Source: an uncultured Spirochaetaceae bacterium
GTDB lineage: Bacteria > Spirochaetota > Spirochaetia > Sphaerochaetales > Sphaerochaetaceae
Direction of reading: 5' to 3'
Assembly (NCBI GenBank): GCA_944389085.1
Contig: CALXLB010000092.1
Location: 1-48,655 of the forward strand
DNA: 48,655 nt
The notes beneath the pieces were generated by a model that saw only the letters and a list, made by a program, of their open reading frames with translations, was not told the DNA's origin and made no database searches. Every line of letters begins with the position of its first letter. The stretch's first letter is position 1. This document shows positions 26,327 to 38,072 of the stretch, one piece after another. A program made the position numbers and the translations under genes.

Positions 26327-27006
26327 AAGCGATAGCCTTCATTCTTGCCTGCGTCCTGTGTTTCTCTTCCTGCCAGAGCATGGAAGGCCCGACAATAACT
26401 GTCTCTGGGGAGGCTGTTGTCCATGCCATTCCTGATATGATCACTGTCGATATCGCGGCAGAGTACACGGGACACACGAGTGGAGAGGCCAGGGCTGTTG
26501 TTTCCGGCATGATAAACAAGGCTGTTTCCATTCTTTCCTCATCATATGGCGTGGAAGAGGATGATGTGATGACATCAGGATTCTCGCTTTATCCTGTTTA
26601 TTCTTATAGTGATGGAGTTGAGAAAGAGGAAGGGCAGAGGGCTGTAGAGAGGATAAGCGTAGTCCTTTACGACACAGAGATTGTCGGAGATGTGATTGAA
26701 AGCCTCAGCAGTCTTGATGGAATCACAATCTCTTCTCTTACTCCTGGCTGCCGTGATACAGCAACTGCCGAGATAAAAGCCAGGTCATTGGCGGTGGAGG
26801 ATGCTATAAGCAAAGCCTCAGTCTATGCTACTGCCGCAGGCTATATGCTTGGTAATCTTCTCTCGCTTTCCAGTACTGATTCCGCTTTGCCTTCTCTTTA
26901 TCAGCCGAAGCTTTATGCTGCCGCTGGCAGCACCGGAACAGAATATCATTCCGGTACTATCAGCATCCGTGACAGCGTTACTGCTGTCTTTTCCCTTTTG
27001 GAATAA
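26323..27006 (+). CDS. SIMPL (DUF541) domain lipoprotein
   Basis: The 227-residue protein begins with a lipoprotein signal (MKAIAFILACVLCFSSC, lipobox FSSC, Cys17) and continues with ITVSGEAVVHAIPDMITVDI, the typical opening of SIMPL/DUF541 proteins. The family includes periplasmic and outer-membrane proteins linked to oxidative stress or oligomeric assembly, with no agreed biochemical role. It is the third gene of the mrp-Nudix operon through an ATGA overlap. Its last 29 bp overlap the convergent transporter gene. Confidence 0.85.
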   Translation: MKAIAFILACVLCFSSCQSMEGPTITVSGEAVVHAIPDMITVDIAAEYTGHTSGEARAVVSGMINKAVSILSSSYGVEEDDVMTSGFSLYPVYSYSDGVEKEEGQRAVERISVVLYDTEIVGDVIESLSSLDGITISSLTPGCRDTATAEIKARSLAVEDAISKASVYATAAGYMLGNLLSLSSTDSALPSLYQPKLYAAAGSTGTEYHSGTISIRDSVTAVFSLLE

Positions 27007-28126
27007 CGAGAATCATCAGCAGTGCGGAGGCGGCAAGCGCTATGCAGAGAACGGGCATTGTCCGTCCGTAGCCGAAGCTGTCGATTGCTTTCCCGAATAC
27101 AGCATTGAATATGACATCGAGTATGCTGGCAGCGCTTACGGCTATTGTTGTGGCCCGTGCTCCGAGTGAGATTGGTGCATGCTTTCTTACAAGAGAGACA
27201 GTTGTCGGATAGACGATTGAAATCGCCAGCCCGACGATAAAGAGCAGGGTAAGCACAGAAGTTGCGAATGTGGCAATTGCTACGAGTGTGGCAATCACAA
27301 GTGAGAGGAAGATCATCTTCTCTGCGCCGATTCTGTCCACGACAGTACCAAGCACGAGACGGCCTATCATCAAGCCTGCACTGTAGAGTGAGAGCGCAAG
27401 TCCTGCTTCTGCTGCGCTTATCTGGAGATAGCTTGTACCATACATGATTATGTAATTCGTTATACCGTGCTCTGCAATGAGATAAAGACCAAGTGTGAGA
27501 GCTATGAGAGCTATCATGCCAGTCTGCATCTTGCCTGTACTGTCGGTAATGGTTCTCCCTTCAGCTTTATCCTCTCTCTTTTCTTCTTTCATCCTCATCA
27601 CAAGGATTGCAAGCGGGATCAGAAGGACAGCCATCGCAATGAGAACCCCATTCCAGACAGTGATGCTGGAAGAGTATCGAGAGAGAATGAGCTGGCTGCC
27701 GGATGTGCCGATTCCCTGCAGGAAGAAGAGAGCATTGAGAAGCATCAGGCTTCTTGTGGCAGAGAACGAATCGGAAATCAGATTGATGGTCGTATTCAGC
27801 AGGGTAGAAATTCCAAGGGCAAGGAAGAAACCGAAGACGAGGATAGCATAATTGCTTCCTAAAAGCAGAAGAAGCTCAGCGAGAGCTAATGCAATGATGA
27901 AGAATGCCATTGCTTTCTTTCTGCCGATTTTGTCGAGAATCATGCCACCAAAGAGTAGACAGATAAGATTCCCCAGATAGCTTGCTGATACAATCACTCC
28001 GACTTGAGACATGTCAAAGCCGAAGACGGAGGTGAACAACGGTGTGAATATGCCGCGCAGTGCATCGCTGACACCCAGGATGACCATCAGCGCGGCTGAA
28101 ATTATATAAAGGCCTTTATTTTTCAT
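26978..28126 (-). CDS. MFS transporter (probable oligosaccharide importer)
   Basis: The 382-residue protein has about twelve hydrophobic segments. Motif A occurs after helix 2 (GGMILDKIGRKKAM) and in a second half-copy (GTVVDRIGAEKM), as in the major facilitator superfamily. It starts by ATGA overlap with the GH105 gene (28123-28126) and is third in the operon 840-aa protein - GH105 - MFS, so import of an unsaturated uronic-acid oligosaccharide or its parent is the likely job. The substrate is inferred from context only. The 3' end overlaps that of the SIMPL gene. Confidence 0.87.
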   Translation of the reverse strand: MKNKGLYIISAALMVILGVSDALRGIFTPLFTSVFGFDMSQVGVIVSASYLGNLICLLFGGMILDKIGRKKAMAFFIIALALAELLLLLGSNYAILVFGFFLALGISTLLNTTINLISDSFSATRSLMLLNALFFLQGIGTSGSQLILSRYSSSITVWNGVLIAMAVLLIPLAILVMRMKEEKREDKAEGRTITDSTGKMQTGMIALIALTLGLYLIAEHGITNYIIMYGTSYLQISAAEAGLALSLYSAGLMIGRLVLGTVVDRIGAEKMIFLSLVIATLVAIATFATSVLTLLFIVGLAISIVYPTTVSLVRKHAPISLGARATTIAVSAASILDVIFNAVFGKAIDSFGYGRTMPVLCIALAASALLMILVIPKGKRQQ

Positions 28127-29211
28127 AGATTGTCGTCCAATGCTTCAATTAAAAAGAGCATTGCCATCGCCTGTCCATAGGGCATTGGATGGATAGGTAT
28201 CTCCTTATACCAGTCCTGGCTTTCTCTTCCCATTGGTGTTCCATAAGAACAGAGCTGGAGAATACCGTCGTCATCAATCTGTTCCATGACGGCCGGTAAT
28301 GCCTTTTCTGCTATCGTCTTGTACTTCGGATCAAGAAGCGAAAGCCTGATGCCAAGCAGGATTCCATACCCGAAACCTGCAGTGCAGCTTGATTCAAGGT
28401 ATGAATCCTCATGGTCAAGAAGCGTATGCCAGAGCCCTGACTCGTCCTGAAGCTTTCCGATGGCCTCGACCTGCCTTGTCAGTACTACAGAGATATACTG
28501 CCTGAGGCCCGGATCAAGGCTGACTATCTCGTCGAAGAGAGGAAGTGCTATTGTTGCCCAGCTGTTGCCTCTGCCCCAATAAGCGGCAGCGAAATGGTCC
28601 TTTCTCTTGTAGGAGTAGCCATGGTACCAGAGTCCTGTGATGGGATTTGCCAGCTGCTCGATATGAAGGAGGAACTGATAGATTGATTCCTCAATGTACT
28701 CTTTCTTCCCATCAATGCGTCCCATATTGGCCAGAGGCAGGACACTCATCATCAGAGTATCGTCCCACAGTTCTCCTTCATTGACATCATCTGTTGTCCT
28801 ATGCTGGAATCCTCCCTCCGGTGTACGTGGGAGTCCTCCTTCGTAAAGCCATGCTGTCCATTCTCTTGCGATATCCAGATAGTCATCTCTCTTGAGGTAT
28901 TCGCCAAGATATTCCAGTGTGAGAATCGGAGCCATTGTATTTACATTCTTTCCCGGCAGCCCCTGTTTGATTCTCTCATCGAAATAAGATGTGAGCATCT
29001 GCAGATATTTATCATCTTTTGTCTTCTCGAAAAGCTTCCAGAGCCCGAAAAGCCCTACGCCCTGAGTCCATTCCCAGTATCTGTATTTCTCTCTGCCTTC
29101 GATACCGGGTGCGAATTTTCCTGATACGTAGTCAGGATCATCTTCCTGGTAAAGCACTGGCAGAAAACCTTTGATGAGCGTTTCCAGCTTGTTTCTGATT
29201 GCGTTGTTCAT
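28123..29211 (-). CDS. Glycoside hydrolase family 105 (unsaturated rhamnogalacturonyl hydrolase-like)
   Basis: The 362-residue protein is an (alpha/alpha)6 barrel enzyme of the GH88/GH105 group. Visible motifs are GELWDDTLMM (the catalytic Asp region) and GLWYHGYSYKRK followed by YWGRGNSW. Such enzymes hydrate the 4,5-double bond of unsaturated uronic acids left by polysaccharide lyases, releasing the neighbouring sugar. No signal peptide, so it works in the cytoplasm. GGGAG lies 7 nt before the ATG, 14 nt after the stop of the preceding 840-aa gene, and it overlaps the MFS start. It anchors the locus to pectin, rhamnogalacturonan or a similar uronate polymer. Confidence 0.9.
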   Translation of the reverse strand: MNNAIRNKLETLIKGFLPVLYQEDDPDYVSGKFAPGIEGREKYRYWEWTQGVGLFGLWKLFEKTKDDKYLQMLTSYFDERIKQGLPGKNVNTMAPILTLEYLGEYLKRDDYLDIAREWTAWLYEGGLPRTPEGGFQHRTTDDVNEGELWDDTLMMSVLPLANMGRIDGKKEYIEESIYQFLLHIEQLANPITGLWYHGYSYKRKDHFAAAYWGRGNSWATIALPLFDEIVSLDPGLRQYISVVLTRQVEAIGKLQDESGLWHTLLDHEDSYLESSCTAGFGYGILLGIRLSLLDPKYKTIAEKALPAVMEQIDDDGILQLCSYGTPMGRESQDWYKEIPIHPMPYGQAMAMLFLIEALDDNL

Positions 29212-29225
29212 GAATATCTCCCTTT

Positions 29226-31748
29226 TTATTCTATATTCTCAATTGTGACAGTCCCTGATGGTGTGAAACCCTTGTAGTTCTCGTCCTGCCCGTTCACACA
29301 GAGTGTGTGGTCCCAGCAGCCTTTGATGACGCCATATTCTGAATCGTTGAATGAATATGTGAGTTTATCCATATCATATTCCAGACTGGTGGAGAGAAGG
29401 CGTGAGGCAAATGCTTCAAAACTTCCTTCTTTCCAGATATCAGAGCATCTTATTATCCATATATTCTTCTTTCCTGGACTTGTGAGTTCTCTTTCCCTGT
29501 TCGGTCCGGTTTCAGTCAGCGTGATACCTTCAGCAGCTGTGACTGCGATCAGGCCGCCATTGGCATTCTCTGCAAATGCCCAGCCATCTCTTATTTCCGC
29601 ACGCTTGAAAGCGAAGACAGGGAAGTAGGCATGTGTGAAATCAACGGGATGCTCCTCGCTTACACTCCAGATGACAGATGCAAATCCTTTGTACTGGTTT
29701 GCTCTTGGCAGTGTACCTGAACCCGCCCAGTATGATGGTCTTGCCTGCCCATAGAGAGCGAATTCACCAGGATGTGTGATCCAGACATGGGCTTCTGCCC
29801 CCAGAACAGCATGAATCACGTCCTCCTGGAATCCTCTTCTGCCAGGATTGAAGTCGTTGGCTGCCGAAAGCAGATAACCGGATGTCTTGTAGACAGTAAC
29901 ATCTGCATATCCTTTGTAACCGTGAGTCGATTTCCAGGAGAGTGCTTTGCCTTCTTCTATCCTATGATAGCGCAGATTCTCATCTTCAGGGGTATAACCG
30001 CTCATCAGAACAGGCACAGACCCTTTTCCTGCATGGGACTCATTTCCGATTCCGTAACCGATCCAGTTGATGAATGAAGGACAGTTCGAATAGTTGCCCA
30101 TCAGTTCTTTGAGGTAGGTCCTTCCGCTTGTCGTACTGAAGATCCCATCATAGCTTGTTATTGCCAGAAGCCGGAAGACATATTCTAGTGCTTTTCTGGC
30201 ATTTTCCTTCATCTCGCTGTTCTCAGTCTGTGCATAGAGAGAAGCAAAACCAAGAATATCAATAGGAAGGTATGGAGGGCTGTTCCATTCTGTGAAACCT
30301 TCACGGAAGAATGTTTCGAACCATGGCCGCAGCATGGAAAGAGCTTTTTCCTGTTTCTCTTTTCCTGTCATACCGCTGTTTGTGAAGATTCTACCAGGAT
30401 ACATCTCTCCTGCAATGAGCTCAGAGATATGGAACATGAGTGCATGGTTTTCGCTCCAGAACCACATGGCATCATTGCCGGGCTCATCATGCCAGTATCT
30501 GAAGGAGAGGAGGCATTCTTCCATATCCTTCAGTGTTTCCTTCCTGATAAGTCCGGAAGAGGAGAAATGCCTGATCATAAAGGGAAAGTATGAGATATAG
30601 AAATCAGAACAGTCGCTGCGATTGTTGATGAAATCAAGCTGTGCACGTAGGATTTTTTCTATTTCATCTTTATCGCCATTGGTGAAAAGCAAAGCCATGG
30701 CACGATTGGCATTGCCTTCTCCATAGAGAGACAGATAGCGCCACGCTTCTTTTCTTCTCTCTTCGATATCATCGCTTGTCTTTCCTTTAAAAGAGAGCGG
30801 GAAGTTCTCGAATGTTCTGATAGTCCTGATCACGACACCTTCGATTTCTGTCCAGACATCCATTCTCAGAAATCCGACGGGAAATGATTCTACAGGTCCA
30901 AGATCTGCTTTGTCAGAACCCTTTGCAAAAACTGCCTCTGCATTCTTCAGTAAGCCAAGTGCCGCGTTCTCTTCAGTCGCCCCGGACATGTGGACGATGA
31001 TGTCTCTATCCGTGAAGGGATTCTCGATGGAGCAGGTTATGTGGCCGGATGTGAAAGTACTTCTGTCAAAGGCAAGTGTTTCCATTGCTTTCTCAGCCTG
31101 CATGATGAGGTCTGTGTTTTTCTCTCCCATCGGTACTTTCTGTAGCAGTTTTCCCGGTCCATTGAGAAGTTTGAATGACACAGCGACTTCTGTGTCTCTT
31201 TCTGCGAATTCATCTGTTTCAACGATGAAGATATTCTCTCCCTTCTTGAGGGTGAGTGTGCATTCAGTCTCTATGGTCTCGTTTCTTCTGTAAGGCCGGA
31301 ATGAATATATTTCCTTATCATCCGAGAAAATCGACATGCCGCCTTCTACTGAAAGCAGGAAGCTGTAATCTCCAGCCTCTGAGGCTTCGAGGACGATGTA
31401 AGCTGCAAGACTGAGCCATCTGGTGGTCGGAGAGAATATGGAAGCTCCTATGACAGGATCACCAAATGGTGCTCTGTAAAGCACTTTGACATCTGTTCCG
31501 TGTAATATAGCTTTACCTTCTGGCTCTGCTTTTGTGAAAACAGGTGCCTTGATTCCTTCTTTTTTCAGCTTTTCAAGGAAACTCACACGAACAGGATTCT
31601 CATGGGTGGAAGCTGCTGTAGAGCCAATCCATACATTCGATTCTTCTGTGATTGCAACAGGATCTCCGTGAACTGCTTCCAGTCTGGGTTCGGTAACCAG
31701 ATAACGTGTTATATATCCGTGCTCAAGCTCTGATACATGCCAATTCAT
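29226..31748 (-). CDS. Uncharacterised 840-aa protein, probable carbohydrate-active enzyme
   Basis: I do not recognise this cytoplasmic protein. Residues ~1-270 look beta-rich (short alternating strands). Residues ~330-560 are helical with aromatic patches, including WFWSENHALMFHISE and FTEWNSPPYLPIDI, as in alpha/alpha-toroid glycosidases and lyases. The C-terminal ~250 residues are again beta-rich (HVWITHPGEFALYGQARPSY). That order, toroid then beta-sandwich, resembles polysaccharide lyases of the heparinase II/III or chondroitin-lyase style, but the chain carries an extra N-terminal beta part. It opens the operon with GH105 and MFS; GGAGG lies 5 nt before the ATG. An enzyme acting on the imported uronic oligosaccharide before GH105 is my inference. 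Confidence 0.6.
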   Translation of the reverse strand: MNWHVSELEHGYITRYLVTEPRLEAVHGDPVAITEESNVWIGSTAASTHENPVRVSFLEKLKKEGIKAPVFTKAEPEGKAILHGTDVKVLYRAPFGDPVIGASIFSPTTRWLSLAAYIVLEASEAGDYSFLLSVEGGMSIFSDDKEIYSFRPYRRNETIETECTLTLKKGENIFIVETDEFAERDTEVAVSFKLLNGPGKLLQKVPMGEKNTDLIMQAEKAMETLAFDRSTFTSGHITCSIENPFTDRDIIVHMSGATEENAALGLLKNAEAVFAKGSDKADLGPVESFPVGFLRMDVWTEIEGVVIRTIRTFENFPLSFKGKTSDDIEERRKEAWRYLSLYGEGNANRAMALLFTNGDKDEIEKILRAQLDFINNRSDCSDFYISYFPFMIRHFSSSGLIRKETLKDMEECLLSFRYWHDEPGNDAMWFWSENHALMFHISELIAGEMYPGRIFTNSGMTGKEKQEKALSMLRPWFETFFREGFTEWNSPPYLPIDILGFASLYAQTENSEMKENARKALEYVFRLLAITSYDGIFSTTSGRTYLKELMGNYSNCPSFINWIGYGIGNESHAGKGSVPVLMSGYTPEDENLRYHRIEEGKALSWKSTHGYKGYADVTVYKTSGYLLSAANDFNPGRRGFQEDVIHAVLGAEAHVWITHPGEFALYGQARPSYWAGSGTLPRANQYKGFASVIWSVSEEHPVDFTHAYFPVFAFKRAEIRDGWAFAENANGGLIAVTAAEGITLTETGPNRERELTSPGKKNIWIIRCSDIWKEGSFEAFASRLLSTSLEYDMDKLTYSFNDSEYGVIKGCWDHTLCVNGQDENYKGFTPSGTVTIENIE

Positions 31749-31773
31749 TCAGGCCTCCGAATGGGAAGTATAC

Positions 31774-31796
31774 TGTAGAATTCTTTATTTTCTACA
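31774..31796. promoter_or_regulatory. Inverted repeat in the divergent control region
   Basis: TGTAGAA (31774-31780) and TTCTACA (31790-31796) form a perfect 7-bp inverted repeat with a 9-bp centre, between the 840-aa gene and the divergent AraC-TIM regulator. A TATACT hexamer for the minus-strand operon lies at 31772-31767, directly beside it. It is a candidate operator. Confidence 0.4.
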
Positions 31797-31815
31797 CAGT
31801 TATTGCTGTCTTCTC

Positions 31816-31844
31816 TTCACTCTGACGCGTAATTTGCCTAATAT
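31816..31844 (+). promoter_or_regulatory. Candidate promoter of the AraC-TIM gene, possibly leaderless
   Basis: TTCACT (31816-31821), a 17-nt spacer and TAATAT (31839-31844) end only 6 nt before the ATG at 31851. Transcription would then begin at or next to the start codon, and no Shine-Dalgarno is present. Confidence 0.4.
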
Positions 31845-31850
31845 TGATTT

Positions 31851-33605
31851 ATGGCTGATTTGATGGATTCTCTGTATTTCGAAGAAGGGTTTTCAATCAG
31901 GGTCAATAGTGATTCTGATCCGCTTTTCTTCCTCATTGATTATGGAATGAGGACCTATCCTATGAATATGGCAAATCAGCATTATCATGACTTCTATGAG
32001 ATATTCATTCCTCTGGAAGATGATGCTGCCCATCTGATAAACGGCAGATATGTTCAGCTCCATAAAGGAGACATCCTCTTTCTGCGTCCCCACGTGCTGC
32101 ATATGTCTATTTATCCGAAGCGCACGACGGGACAGAAGCGTATAATCATCAATTTCAGTGCTTCGTACCAGATTCCTGGAATGGAGTATCAGAGGGGAAA
32201 GGTCCTTTCTCTCTTCGATTCAGATGAACCTGTGCTGCGTCTTCCGCCGGAATATCTGAACAAGGTAGTCAGAAAGCTTAATGATATCTTCACTGCTGGC
32301 AAGGTCAAGTCCTCTGGATGGCAGCTGGAACTTTATTCGCTCTTTATTCTGTTCATGCTGGAGATTGCACGCAACAGCCGTCACAATATCTACAAAGCGG
32401 AGAGCCATCCCGGCCTTCCTGATCTCAAGATGTATGCCATCACGGAGTATATAGAGACTCATTATATGGAGCCTCTTTCTCTTAATGACATTGCCGAGCA
32501 TTTCGCAATCTCTCCGTTCTACCTTTCCCATCAGTTCACGAAAGTGATGGGTATGTCATTTGTGACATACATACAGAGAGTCAGGATAAGATATGCACTG
32601 CAGATGCTTTCATACACCGATGCAAGAATTCACGATATCATTGCCGATTGCGGTTTTTCTTCATCCTCGCAGTTCAACAGGACCTTTACTGCTTTCTGCT
32701 CGATGAGTCCCTCTGCTTTCCGGAAGCTGTCAAGCCAGAATAAGGAGATTGTCATCAGTTCCCTCGACCCTGAAAGAAGCGAAGTTGCTCCTTCTGCCTT
32801 TCCTCCCAGGTTCAAGACGCTTCCCAGAAAACGCAGAGGATGTGATGGTACGAAGATAGGAGTATCGACAATCGCTCTTTCTCCCACTGACCTTCAGACG
32901 CTGAAGGAGAAGATTGCTCTGGTAGGAGCTGAGACGGTATTGCTGGATATTCCGGGAAGCTTTCATTCTGTAGAAAGCTATATCTCCCTGGGGCATAAAC
33001 GGATTCTGGAAATTGCAGGTCTGGGTATCGATATCTCCGTGCTGGGGGTACGCGGACTGCATCTTGCCTCTGCGGATGAAGCTGAAAGAAGGCAGAACAT
33101 AGATGAATGTGTTGCCGCCATTGGTGTCGCTTCGCTTCTCTCTGTTCCTTATCTTGCAATAAAACCGGGAAGAGGGGAAAAGGGCATTTTTCTCTCATCG
33201 CTTCATCAGATTATGGAAAAAGCCGCCGGTACTGGCGTTTCCATTGCCGTAACACCGCTTGTAGATACAGCTGTTGATGGCTTTGATGGGGCTGCTGAAA
33301 TGATTGAAGCTGAGCCTGGTGTGCAGATTGTCCTTGACCCGCTGGGTCTTGTTGCAGCAGATGGCAGGAATAATACATTCTCATTCTTTGAAGAGGTTTT
33401 CTCAGTGATGGCAACGAGAATCGTCGCCCTGCTTCTCCGGGACAGCCTTGACGGGCATATCGTGAATATAGGTAAGGGGATAATGGCAAAGACTTATCCG
33501 CGTATAGCTTCTCTTGTCGATAGCAGCGTGCCATTGATCAGGGCTGGTGCAGAGGCAGCCGCCATCCCCGATGATATGCTCTATATACGCAGAGTCTTCC
33601 TCTGA
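31851..33605 (+). CDS. AraC-type regulator fused to a sugar-isomerase-like TIM barrel
   Basis: The 584-residue protein has three parts. Residues ~20-110 are an AraC-type cupin (NQHYHDFYEIF, His44/His46/Glu50). Residues ~195-295 are the double helix-turn-helix (LNDIAEHFAISPFYLSHQF, then IADCGFSSSSQFNRTF). Residues ~335-584 match the xylose-isomerase-like/AP-endonuclease-2 TIM barrel (TKIGVSTIAL...). In the barrel the usual Glu after the 'GV.l..E' strand is Thr (VSIAVTPLVD), while the Asp in VQIVLDP remains, so it may sense a sugar rather than convert one. AraC regulators normally end after the HTH (~300 aa). It is divergent from the GH105 operon and is its likely regulator. Confidence 0.82.
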   Translation: MADLMDSLYFEEGFSIRVNSDSDPLFFLIDYGMRTYPMNMANQHYHDFYEIFIPLEDDAAHLINGRYVQLHKGDILFLRPHVLHMSIYPKRTTGQKRIIINFSASYQIPGMEYQRGKVLSLFDSDEPVLRLPPEYLNKVVRKLNDIFTAGKVKSSGWQLELYSLFILFMLEIARNSRHNIYKAESHPGLPDLKMYAITEYIETHYMEPLSLNDIAEHFAISPFYLSHQFTKVMGMSFVTYIQRVRIRYALQMLSYTDARIHDIIADCGFSSSSQFNRTFTAFCSMSPSAFRKLSSQNKEIVISSLDPERSEVAPSAFPPRFKTLPRKRRGCDGTKIGVSTIALSPTDLQTLKEKIALVGAETVLLDIPGSFHSVESYISLGHKRILEIAGLGIDISVLGVRGLHLASADEAERRQNIDECVAAIGVASLLSVPYLAIKPGRGEKGIFLSSLHQIMEKAAGTGVSIAVTPLVDTAVDGFDGAAEMIEAEPGVQIVLDPLGLVAADGRNNTFSFFEEVFSVMATRIVALLLRDSLDGHIVNIGKGIMAKTYPRIASLVDSSVPLIRAGAEAAAIPDDMLYIRRVFL

Positions 33606-34565
33606 TCAGCCGAGAACCGAAAGCGTATAATTATTGAGCGTATCGTTCTCGTAGAGAAGTCTGTACAGGGCCTGGACAAGGGGGAATTCTTCCGCGACTC
33701 CTTTCTGTCTTGTGATTTCCCCGATGAGCTTCACTGTTCTGAGTCCTTCGACAACAGTTGAAGATTTTGAATCCGGATCGTAACCAAAACCTTTGCCTAT
33801 GAGCATTCCCAGTGTTCTGTTTCTGGAAAGGTCATTGAGAGCAGTGAGACCTAAATCCCCGATACCGCAGTATCGGAAAATAGTCTCTTCATCACAGGAG
33901 AATATCCTCAGCAGTCCCCTCATCTCGTTTACGGCTTTGGTGTAGACAAGGAAATCGACATTAGGACTGTTGAATTTGCCAGATACTATACCGATAGCAA
34001 TGGCGTACATATTCTTCAATATACTCATCAGCTCGACTGCTCTCACGTCTTTTGACCAGTCGAGGGAGAACTGTGTATCCGGAAGTACTTCTTTTCTGAA
34101 GTAATCGTAGTCTTCCTTCTTGCCGCCGAAGGTGAAGGATGTAGGGAAACCATTGATGGTCTCGATGGCAAATGAAGGACCTTTCATGCTCGCTGTACGG
34201 CTGAAAGGAATCTTTTCCGTGATGAATGCGCCATCATCGCTCATTCCTTTTGCAAGATTGATGATCAAAGGCTCCTTTGCAGTGTTTTTCCTGATTTCCT
34301 CTGAAAATGGAACAATAGCCTGCGAAGGAATGACAAGCATCACGACATCAGCTTCCTTGAAGACAGAGAAGTCAGATGTCGCAGAGAGGTATCTGTTGAG
34401 GAAGCGTGTCGGGAAATACTTTCTGTTCGTATGTTTCTCGTTTATCTCTTTCTCTACGTCTTTCTCGATAGTATGAAGCGTCACTCTGTTGTTTATGTTC
34501 CATGTCAGGCGTTCAGCAACAGCAGTTCCGAATGTTCCTGCACCTGCAATGATTATGTTATTCAA
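33606..34565 (-). CDS. gpsA: NAD(P)-dependent glycerol-3-phosphate dehydrogenase
   Basis: The 319-residue enzyme reduces dihydroxyacetone phosphate to sn-glycerol-3-phosphate for phospholipid synthesis. It begins with the Rossmann loop GAGTFGTAVAERL and has INLAKGMSDDG, the KNMYAIAIGI helix with the catalytic Lys, and the substrate-binding LTALNDLSRNRTLG. It starts by ATGA overlap with the upstream GH36 gene and therefore shares its transcript, an odd partnership of housekeeping lipid synthesis and galactoside use. Its stop codon directly abuts the end of the convergent AraC-TIM gene. Confidence 0.92.
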   Translation of the reverse strand: MNNIIIAGAGTFGTAVAERLTWNINNRVTLHTIEKDVEKEINEKHTNRKYFPTRFLNRYLSATSDFSVFKEADVVMLVIPSQAIVPFSEEIRKNTAKEPLIINLAKGMSDDGAFITEKIPFSRTASMKGPSFAIETINGFPTSFTFGGKKEDYDYFRKEVLPDTQFSLDWSKDVRAVELMSILKNMYAIAIGIVSGKFNSPNVDFLVYTKAVNEMRGLLRIFSCDEETIFRYCGIGDLGLTALNDLSRNRTLGMLIGKGFGYDPDSKSSTVVEGLRTVKLIGEITRQKGVAEEFPLVQALYRLLYENDTLNNYTLSVLG

Positions 34566-36899: not shown

Positions 36900-38072
36900 A
36901 TGGATATCAGAAGGCTATCTCTCTGGGAAGGCCGCTATGCAACATATATGTCCAATGATATCTTCTCCGCTCTTGTGGAAGACCAGGGGGAGGTCCTTCT
37001 TGAGCTGACATCCCGTACTTTATCAGGAGCAAGGATAAATGCTCTTGCTCTTCCATATTTCAGAGGTACTGGATCTGGGGTGCTTTCCGATGAGAATGGT
37101 GAATGGTGGCAGAACAGTGCAGCTCTGTATCAGGCAGGCGGAGGTTATTTCACATTTCCTTTCTCCTCATCTGAACATATAAATTCAGTGAGTACTTATT
37201 GGACGCTCAGACGCTATGGCACTGAAGAGGAGCATGGTGGTGTCTGGCGGCTTTCAGAGATGAAGAGCCGAGAAGAAGGAAACCGATTCCATCTGCAGAA
37301 GCTTGATCTTCTGCTGCCGAGGCATCCTGTTCTTTATACTGCACTGAGGATCACTAATTCAGGAGAAGAGGAGCTCAGAGGTTCTCTTTCCTGGCATAGC
37401 ATGCTCTCCTCTCCGCTTCTGGAAACAGGTTCCCTGATTTCCTCCAATGCCAGATACTGGACTGCATATGCACTTTCACGCCGTGAATCGGGAGTGAATA
37501 GATTCATGCCAGGAGTTGTCTTCGATGATCTGAAGCACGCGCCTCTGGTTCGTGGAGGCAATGCAGATGCGGGCTTTGTTCCCCCTCCGACAGGAACTTA
37601 TGATTACATGATTGGCAAGATTTCCGAGAAAAGTCCCGTCGGGTGGGCCGCTCTTAATAATCCGAAGTGTCAGCTTCTGTATTTTATGTTCACACCTAAA
37701 AACCCAGAGGAGAATCTCTTCGTTTTTCCCAATGTCGACATTGCTGAGAACTATCTTGGCAGAATGGATGCTCCCTGGGCTCTCTTTGACGGGGGTACTC
37801 CTGAAATACGTGCTGTCACGCTAGGTTTCAATACTGGGCCAAAAGGTACGAAGAATCTCTCTCTGCAGCCAGGGCAGTCCTGTACAGCCTTCATCGGCAA
37901 CGGATTCATAAGCTACGATAATCCCAGGATAGGGCTTGGCTTCTATTCTGCGGAATTCACCGAAGAAGGTGTTGTCTTCAAACGTACGAAAAGCTGGGCT
38001 CTGATGCCGGCGGATTATCGTTTTACCGCGCTCAGGACTTTGCTGAAGAAGCTTTCGGAGAACAAGGATTAA
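36900..38072 (+). CDS. Uncharacterised 390-aa protein, probable mutarotase-like or carbohydrate-related fold
   Basis: I do not recognise a named family. The protein is cytoplasmic (no signal), beta-rich throughout, with aromatic stretches (GGGYFTFPFSSSEHIN, YWTLRRYGTEEEHGG) and HPVLYTALRITNSGEEELRG, which resembles strand pairs in galactose-mutarotase-like or glycoside-hydrolase N-terminal beta-supersandwich domains. A very strong AAGGAGG site lies 4-5 nt before the ATG. It is divergent from the GH36 gene (73 bp apart), so a role with the same sugar, such as epimerase or binding protein, is reasonable but not shown. Its last 4 bases overlap the convergent beta-barrel gene. Confidence 0.6.
   Translation: MDIRRLSLWEGRYATYMSNDIFSALVEDQGEVLLELTSRTLSGARINALALPYFRGTGSGVLSDENGEWWQNSAALYQAGGGYFTFPFSSSEHINSVSTYWTLRRYGTEEEHGGVWRLSEMKSREEGNRFHLQKLDLLLPRHPVLYTALRITNSGEEELRGSLSWHSMLSSPLLETGSLISSNARYWTAYALSRRESGVNRFMPGVVFDDLKHAPLVRGGNADAGFVPPPTGTYDYMIGKISEKSPVGWAALNNPKCQLLYFMFTPKNPEENLFVFPNVDIAENYLGRMDAPWALFDGGTPEIRAVTLGFNTGPKGTKNLSLQPGQSCTAFIGNGFISYDNPRIGLGFYSAEFTEEGVVFKRTKSWALMPADYRFTALRTLLKKLSENKD

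Follow-up and report, generated by a model that had tools for sequence, protein, structure and literature searches.

Regulator domains derived from enzymes are well known, and examples of such sensors are found in SorC/CggR and DeoR (both sugar-isomerase-like), RpiR (SIS), ROK repressors and MocR/GabR; Ada combines an AraC HTH with an active methyltransferase. In these proteins an enzyme fold serves as a regulatory input beside an HTH, as is proposed here for a TIM barrel attached to an AraC-type regulator. How an enzyme turned into a regulatory part can usually no longer be traced. We know of no enzyme-derived-sensor regulator among these that pairs AraC with a xylose-isomerase barrel, and no report of an AraC-isomerase or AraC-TIM-barrel fusion was found in the open-licence literature. 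As far as that literature goes the pairing is new, while the principle of enzyme-derived regulator domains is already known. In contrast to the systems above, living relatives here show the intact fusion, the dead fusion and, within a matching cassette, the free enzyme.

The sugar-operon regulators of the AraC/XylS family (RhaR, MelR, AraC) consist of an N-terminal cupin and a double helix-turn-helix and are divergent from a sugar-use operon. The regulator studied here has the same arrangement, but it carries an extra 250-residue enzyme-derived barrel after the HTH. It is encoded in a 48,655-nucleotide stretch of DNA from an uncultured Spirochaetaceae bacterium (contig CALXLB010000092.1), which as a whole is called the window below. 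The gene and its parts are as follows.

31851..33605, + strand: AraC-type regulator fused to a xylose-isomerase-like TIM barrel, 584 aa (ATG start, no internal stop; Pfam; full-length in 18 genomes including the window's)
31878..32180, + strand: N-terminal cupin (AraC_binding) region, residues ~10-110 (Pfam AraC_binding; beta strands in the AlphaFold2 model)
32490..32726, + strand: AraC double helix-turn-helix (HTH_18), residues 214-292 (Pfam HTH_18)
32736..32852, + strand: linker, residues 296-334 (alignment with unfused relatives; pLDDT <50 at 307-332)
32853..33602, + strand: catalytically degenerate TIM barrel, residues 335-584 (Pfam AP_endonuc_2, AlphaFold2, VIA-align Z 27.0, fused clade in the tree)

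The fused gene and its divergent operon

When the whole protein was searched against Pfam, both domains of an AraC/XylS regulator were found: the double HTH (HTH_18, residues 214-292, 1.2e-22, 80.4 bits against a cut-off of 33.6) and the N-terminal AraC_binding cupin (residues 37-85, 4.2e-5, 23.7 bits against a cut-off of 21.1). The C-terminal part matches AP_endonuc_2 (PF01261) at residues 390-546 (2e-7), and its 31.3 bits are barely over the cut-off of 31.1, as would be expected of a divergent member. In the NCBIfam scan the regulator reaches no equivalog cut-off and the window barrel has no match. The preliminary description had read the AraC regulator and the C-terminal ~250 residues as one open reading frame; domain search, structure prediction and 17 other genomes agree with it. 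Since the barrel is in frame in those 17 genomes and AlphaFold2 gives it eight strands, it is a genuine part of the protein rather than a fortuitous extension.

Of the 139 family genomes (the window's counted), 18 were found to carry the fusion, always at full length and never broken by a stop. Sixteen of the carriers are species of the window's genus, to which Candidatus Ornithospirochaeta stercoripullorum (L001) belongs; the other two are Bullifex genomes, Bullifex porci (L010) and the MAG L009. No barrel match at 1e-20 was found outside the window's genus in 393 genomes drawn evenly across the phylum, a draw that did not contain the two Bullifex carriers.

The regulator is divergent from a GH105 operon, as had been described; read from the regulator, the gene order is the ~840-aa protein, GH105 and MFS.

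31749..31850, no strand assigned: divergent intergenic region with a conserved footprint and a TATACT -10-like site for the minus-strand operon (DNA alignment; promoter-like scan)
29226..31748, - strand: ~840-aa conserved protein, first gene of the divergent operon (without Pfam, NCBIfam or PDB sequence match)
28123..29211, - strand: GH88/GH105 hydrolase (Pfam PF07470, 1.3e-85; NCBIfam NF051900, 404.8 bits, just missing the cut-off of 420)
26978..28126, - strand: MFS sugar-type transporter, last gene of the divergent operon (Pfam MFS_1, 6.8e-32; conserved in the cassette)

The 102-bp divergent region has 78% mean column identity in a DNA alignment of nine species, and AGTATA (TATACT or TATACN on the operon strand) is present in 9/9 aligned regions. 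The linkage of regulator and operon is kept in ten full-length relatives, Bullifex included, as far as the contigs reach. Unfused AraC relatives (~306-356 aa) adjoin homologous cassettes in other genera, usually with an ABC transporter and often with a GH38 alpha-mannosidase, which indicates that regulator and cassette are older than the addition of the barrel. The window's own genome has a second cassette of this kind (L064, C53, 10030-17665) with an unfused AraC and no barrel, an 828-aa homologue, a solute-binding protein, two ABC permeases and GH105. Because this paralogue and other relatives regulate matching cassettes without a barrel, basic regulation does not require one.

In the spirochaete genera examined the ~840-aa protein is strongly conserved together with GH105 cassettes, and it contains many invariant W, D, E and H residues, for example in the set W419, D421, E422, E433, N434 and H435. 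It may represent an as yet undescribed family of polysaccharide lyases or hydrolases. On the other side of the regulator, a glycerol-3-phosphate-dehydrogenase-like gene (33606-34565, - strand, TTG start) has its stop abutting the regulator at 33605/33606; it lies before a GH36 alpha-galactosidase gene and is 86-96% conserved in most genus relatives, above its neighbours. A 390-aa protein (36900-38072, + strand) without Pfam or NCBIfam match is, within the genus, conserved along with the GH36 gene.

Fold of the barrel and loss of its active site

The AlphaFold2 model of the window protein, built on an 11-sequence alignment, has a pLDDT of 78.9 overall; the barrel, mostly at 75-94, shows eight strands and the linker is disordered at residues 307-332 (pLDDT <50). 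In a VIA-align structural alignment residues 333-584 match the Art22 isomerase 8z1i with Z 27.0 (rmsd 2.1, 232 residues aligned), the Zn-bound epimerase UlaE 3cqj with Z 25.8 and IolI with Z 23.1, and many epimerases were also matched; structure prediction and comparison gave an equivalent result for the Bullifex homologue. By Pfam and structural alignment the window barrel is an eight-stranded member of the xylose-isomerase-like superfamily, and the TIM barrel postulated in the preliminary description is present in the predicted structure. At the sequence level, phmmer searches of the window and Bullifex barrels against PDB sequences gave no useful match, and solved structures were reached only by a profile of free enzymes.

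The window barrel has its fold, strand order and four metal-ligand positions in common with the AP_endonuc_2 enzymes Art22, UlaE, IolI and the L-ribulose-5-phosphate 3-epimerases. It differs from Art22/UlaE/IolI-type enzymes in the absence of three of the four ligands and of most other subfamily invariants, and in being covalently joined to a DNA-binding protein. The active site was compared in a table of 12 active-site columns, for which 18 fused and 13 free barrels were aligned. The identity of the ligands was checked with the free-enzyme profile, which puts the subfamily E, D and H on IolI E142, D174 and H200.

33252..33254, + strand: T468, replacing the beta5 metal-ligand Glu (column table; maps to IolI E142)
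33336..33338, + strand: D496, the sole retained metal-ligand position, beta6 (column table; IolI D174)
33432..33434, + strand: L528, replacing the beta7 metal-ligand His (column table; IolI H200)
33543..33545, + strand: A565, replacing the beta8 metal-ligand Glu (column table)

Where the metal site should read Glu-Asp-His-Glu, the window has T468-D496-L528-A565, with 3/4 ligands lost. The preliminary description had noted one catalytic Glu changed to Thr and an Asp kept: T468 and D496 agree with this, but the loss was understated. Among the enzymes that we group here as the RxHDxG isomerase subfamily, a grouping defined in this analysis, the further invariants are R, H and D (beta1), E (beta4), N (beta6) and K (beta7); in the window these have become S339, I341, A342, K438, G499 and R530. 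The window barrel does not carry the invariant residues of the subfamily, and its descent from it rests on the tree instead; on the combined sequence and model evidence we assign it to the RxHDxG subfamily of xylose-isomerase-like enzymes. The E/D/H/E set is complete in 13/13 free enzymes and 2/2 Bullifex fusions, which also keep all six further invariants, whereas 0/16 fusions of the window's genus keep either a Glu or the His of the metal site. The Asp position in these 16 holds D in 13, N in two and S in one, and the positions of the former metal/substrate pocket vary between species of the genus.

The full catalytic conservation that would have made the protein a bifunctional enzyme, an alternative raised at the outset, is absent in the window; the comparison suggests that this description fits Bullifex and not the window. 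The barrel might still be an enzyme with metal-independent chemistry, making the window protein a bifunctional regulator-enzyme as well. The Bullifex fusions look catalytically complete, and D496, D531, K547 and R564 show full or nearly full conservation; however, the three metal ligands and most subfamily invariants have been lost differently in different species, and the old site holds no conserved residues that could be recognised as a new catalytic set, which leaves such an enzyme very improbable.

Origin of the barrel and route of the fusion

In a tblastn search of the plasmid collection the best match of the Bullifex barrel is Subdoligranulum variabile OY725877 (35% identity), and in a separate search of that collection the best match of P0001 is OY725877 too (AraC part 42%). 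In this record, which is unannotated and gave the sole unfused cassette found with the nearest free enzyme, an unfused AraC and a catalytically complete free isomerase share one cassette, with GH105 (52-56%) and MFS (36-37%) between the two genes. The barrel tree groups the 18 fused barrels in one clade (support 96/94) with the Subdoligranulum enzyme as sister (99/98 with Bullifex alone, 93/99 with all), and separates the window's genus from Bullifex at 100/99. Loss of the metal site would most simply be one event on the stem of the genus. In the tree of the AraC part alone the fusions do not all group together, owing to a single unfused paralogue on a long branch; placing them in one clade is not rejected (p-AU 0.27).

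Free RxHDxG enzymes adjoin GH88/GH105 hydrolases in Monoglobus pectinilyticus, and one lies beside a GH88 gene in the spirochaete L059. At the three loci L058-L060 that carry free enzymes, the neighbours resemble, by eye, enzymes of hexuronate catabolism. The ancestral activity of the barrel was likely that of a uronate-related sugar isomerase/epimerase. In known pathways 4-deoxy-5-hexosulose uronate is the product of GH105 (PMC12838403). A role as replacement for KduI (4-deoxy-5-hexosulose-uronate isomerase) was considered and not assigned; a KduI-family protein (PF04962) is already present in most genomes checked. A free isomerase of the same subfamily was also observed in G054, at 4714-5574 of L072, near an unfused AraC relative and its cassette.

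Three observations bear on how the two genes were joined. First, the unfused AraC relatives end inside a stretch homologous to the first part of the linker, and the second half of the linker is apparently former intergenic DNA. Second, the Bullifex barrel starts with AAGGAGGAAATATG, in frame within the fused gene, and the free Subdoligranulum isomerase gene starts with AAGGAGGAAATATCATG; the stretch AAGGAGGAAATAT in Bullifex is identical to the leader of the free gene. Only one of the 111 internal in-frame ATGs of the B. porci locus (L010) has a Shine-Dalgarno-like hexamer within 16 bases, and only one of 108 in L009; in both cases it is the start of the barrel. Third, in Enterococcus faecalis LR962329 (L078, 7073-8834) an AraC gene is directly followed by an RxHDxG isomerase gene, with the AraC stop and the isomerase ATG one base apart (TAAAATG). 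This pair is likely translationally coupled; it is unfused, and its AraC part is only 24% identical. Taken together, the linker and the ends of the unfused relatives, the ribosome-binding site and ATG in frame in Bullifex and the unfused E. faecalis pair make stop-codon read-through of a gene pair the likely route of fusion.

The in-frame Shine-Dalgarno and ATG lie at 8992-9005 in L010 and 8976-8990 in L009, and dual products from the one Bullifex gene are possible. An internal start for a free barrel was also considered for the window and rejected, since the ATG is ACG there and no Shine-Dalgarno precedes it.

Constraint on the barrel and its present role

From NG86 counts the barrel dN/dS is 0.09-0.26 for genus pairs with estimable dS; as dS is close to saturated, these values are rough. 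Relative to the AraC part, the dN of the barrel is ~1.9-3.3 times as high in the main genus clade, 1.2-1.4 times among L037-L039 and ~0.9 times in Bullifex. By these counts the barrel of the genus evolves faster than the AraC part yet stays under purifying selection. A decaying remnant, in a fusion merely not yet trimmed, would account for a barrel evolving ~2-3x faster than the AraC part in the main clade, but the full-length open frame and the fold are kept in 16 species, the dN/dS is well below 1 and residues are invariant across the genus; with such constraint on the sequence, decay is extremely unlikely.

The constraint is unevenly spread, and one segment stands out in the conservation by segment and in the invariants of the alignments.

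33372..33542, + strand: highest-constraint segment of the fused barrels, residues 508-564, with NTFSFFEE, GxGxMAKTYPRI and PLIR

Conservation is 0.77 in alpha6, 0.79 in loop beta7-alpha7 and 0.88 in alpha7, compared with 0.51-0.58 in helices 1-5, and D531, G541, G543, M545, A546, P550, R564 and D575 do not vary within the genus. Intact and dead fusions have in common the MAKxYP insertion and R564, both absent from the free enzymes. This distribution points to constraint on the beta6-alpha8 side, away from the old metal site, and would be as compatible with an interface between domains or in the dimer as with a remodelled ligand site.

The barrel could accordingly be a structural or oligomerisation module whose alpha6/alpha7 face sets the geometry or stability of the AraC dimer and which binds no small molecule. 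The concentration of constraint in alpha6, alpha7 and the loop between beta7 and alpha7, the fusion-specific insertion and R564, and the variable old pocket all speak for such a module; against it, the same loop together with D531, K547 and R564 is also part of the catalytic (C-terminal) face, which could hold a remodelled anion site. On balance we consider a pure scaffold unlikely, though it deserves to be taken seriously. The former pocket varies freely between species, which speaks against a common sugar ligand held as in the ancestral enzyme. Of the two sensory modules proposed in the preliminary description, a cupin and a barrel reading perhaps a polymer fragment and a phosphorylated or monomeric product, the second is on this evidence a hypothetical sensor.

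Our preferred explanation, which we regard as probable, is that the protein regulates a uronide/oligosaccharide operon and that its barrel came from an isomerase of the same pathway, lost catalysis in the genus and is now an allosteric module. The regulator would control the utilisation operon of the ~840-aa protein, GH105 and MFS, and the barrel would descend from a sugar isomerase/epimerase that served that pathway, joined when read-through of the regulator stop entered the downstream isomerase gene. Bullifex would make both the regulator-enzyme and the free enzyme. In the window's genus, where catalysis would be lost, the barrel would modulate how the AraC part dimerises or binds DNA at the divergent promoter. 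It would do so either through a sugar acid of the pathway at a remodelled beta6-beta8 site or through contact with the AraC part; effector binding is placed somewhat ahead of such contact for the dead barrel. A bolder form of this explanation, in which the pathway isomerase was captured by its own regulator, Bullifex has a regulator-enzyme with an internal-start product and the sister genus has a non-catalytic ligand-reading domain that makes a new AraC class, with the retired pathway enzyme as second sensor, is put forward tentatively, as something short of probable.

Three stages are found at recognisably related loci: the free enzyme in a matching cassette, the intact fusion with its ribosome-binding site in frame and the fusion with its site destroyed. 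They suggest that fusion came first and that catalysis was lost afterwards, with a probable regulatory part at the end. Because the stages survive in living species, this order of events can be tested by barrel swap or truncation. The interest of the locus lies in these preserved stages and not in a new principle, and in Bullifex porci, which is cultured, one gene may yield both a regulator-enzyme and a free enzyme.
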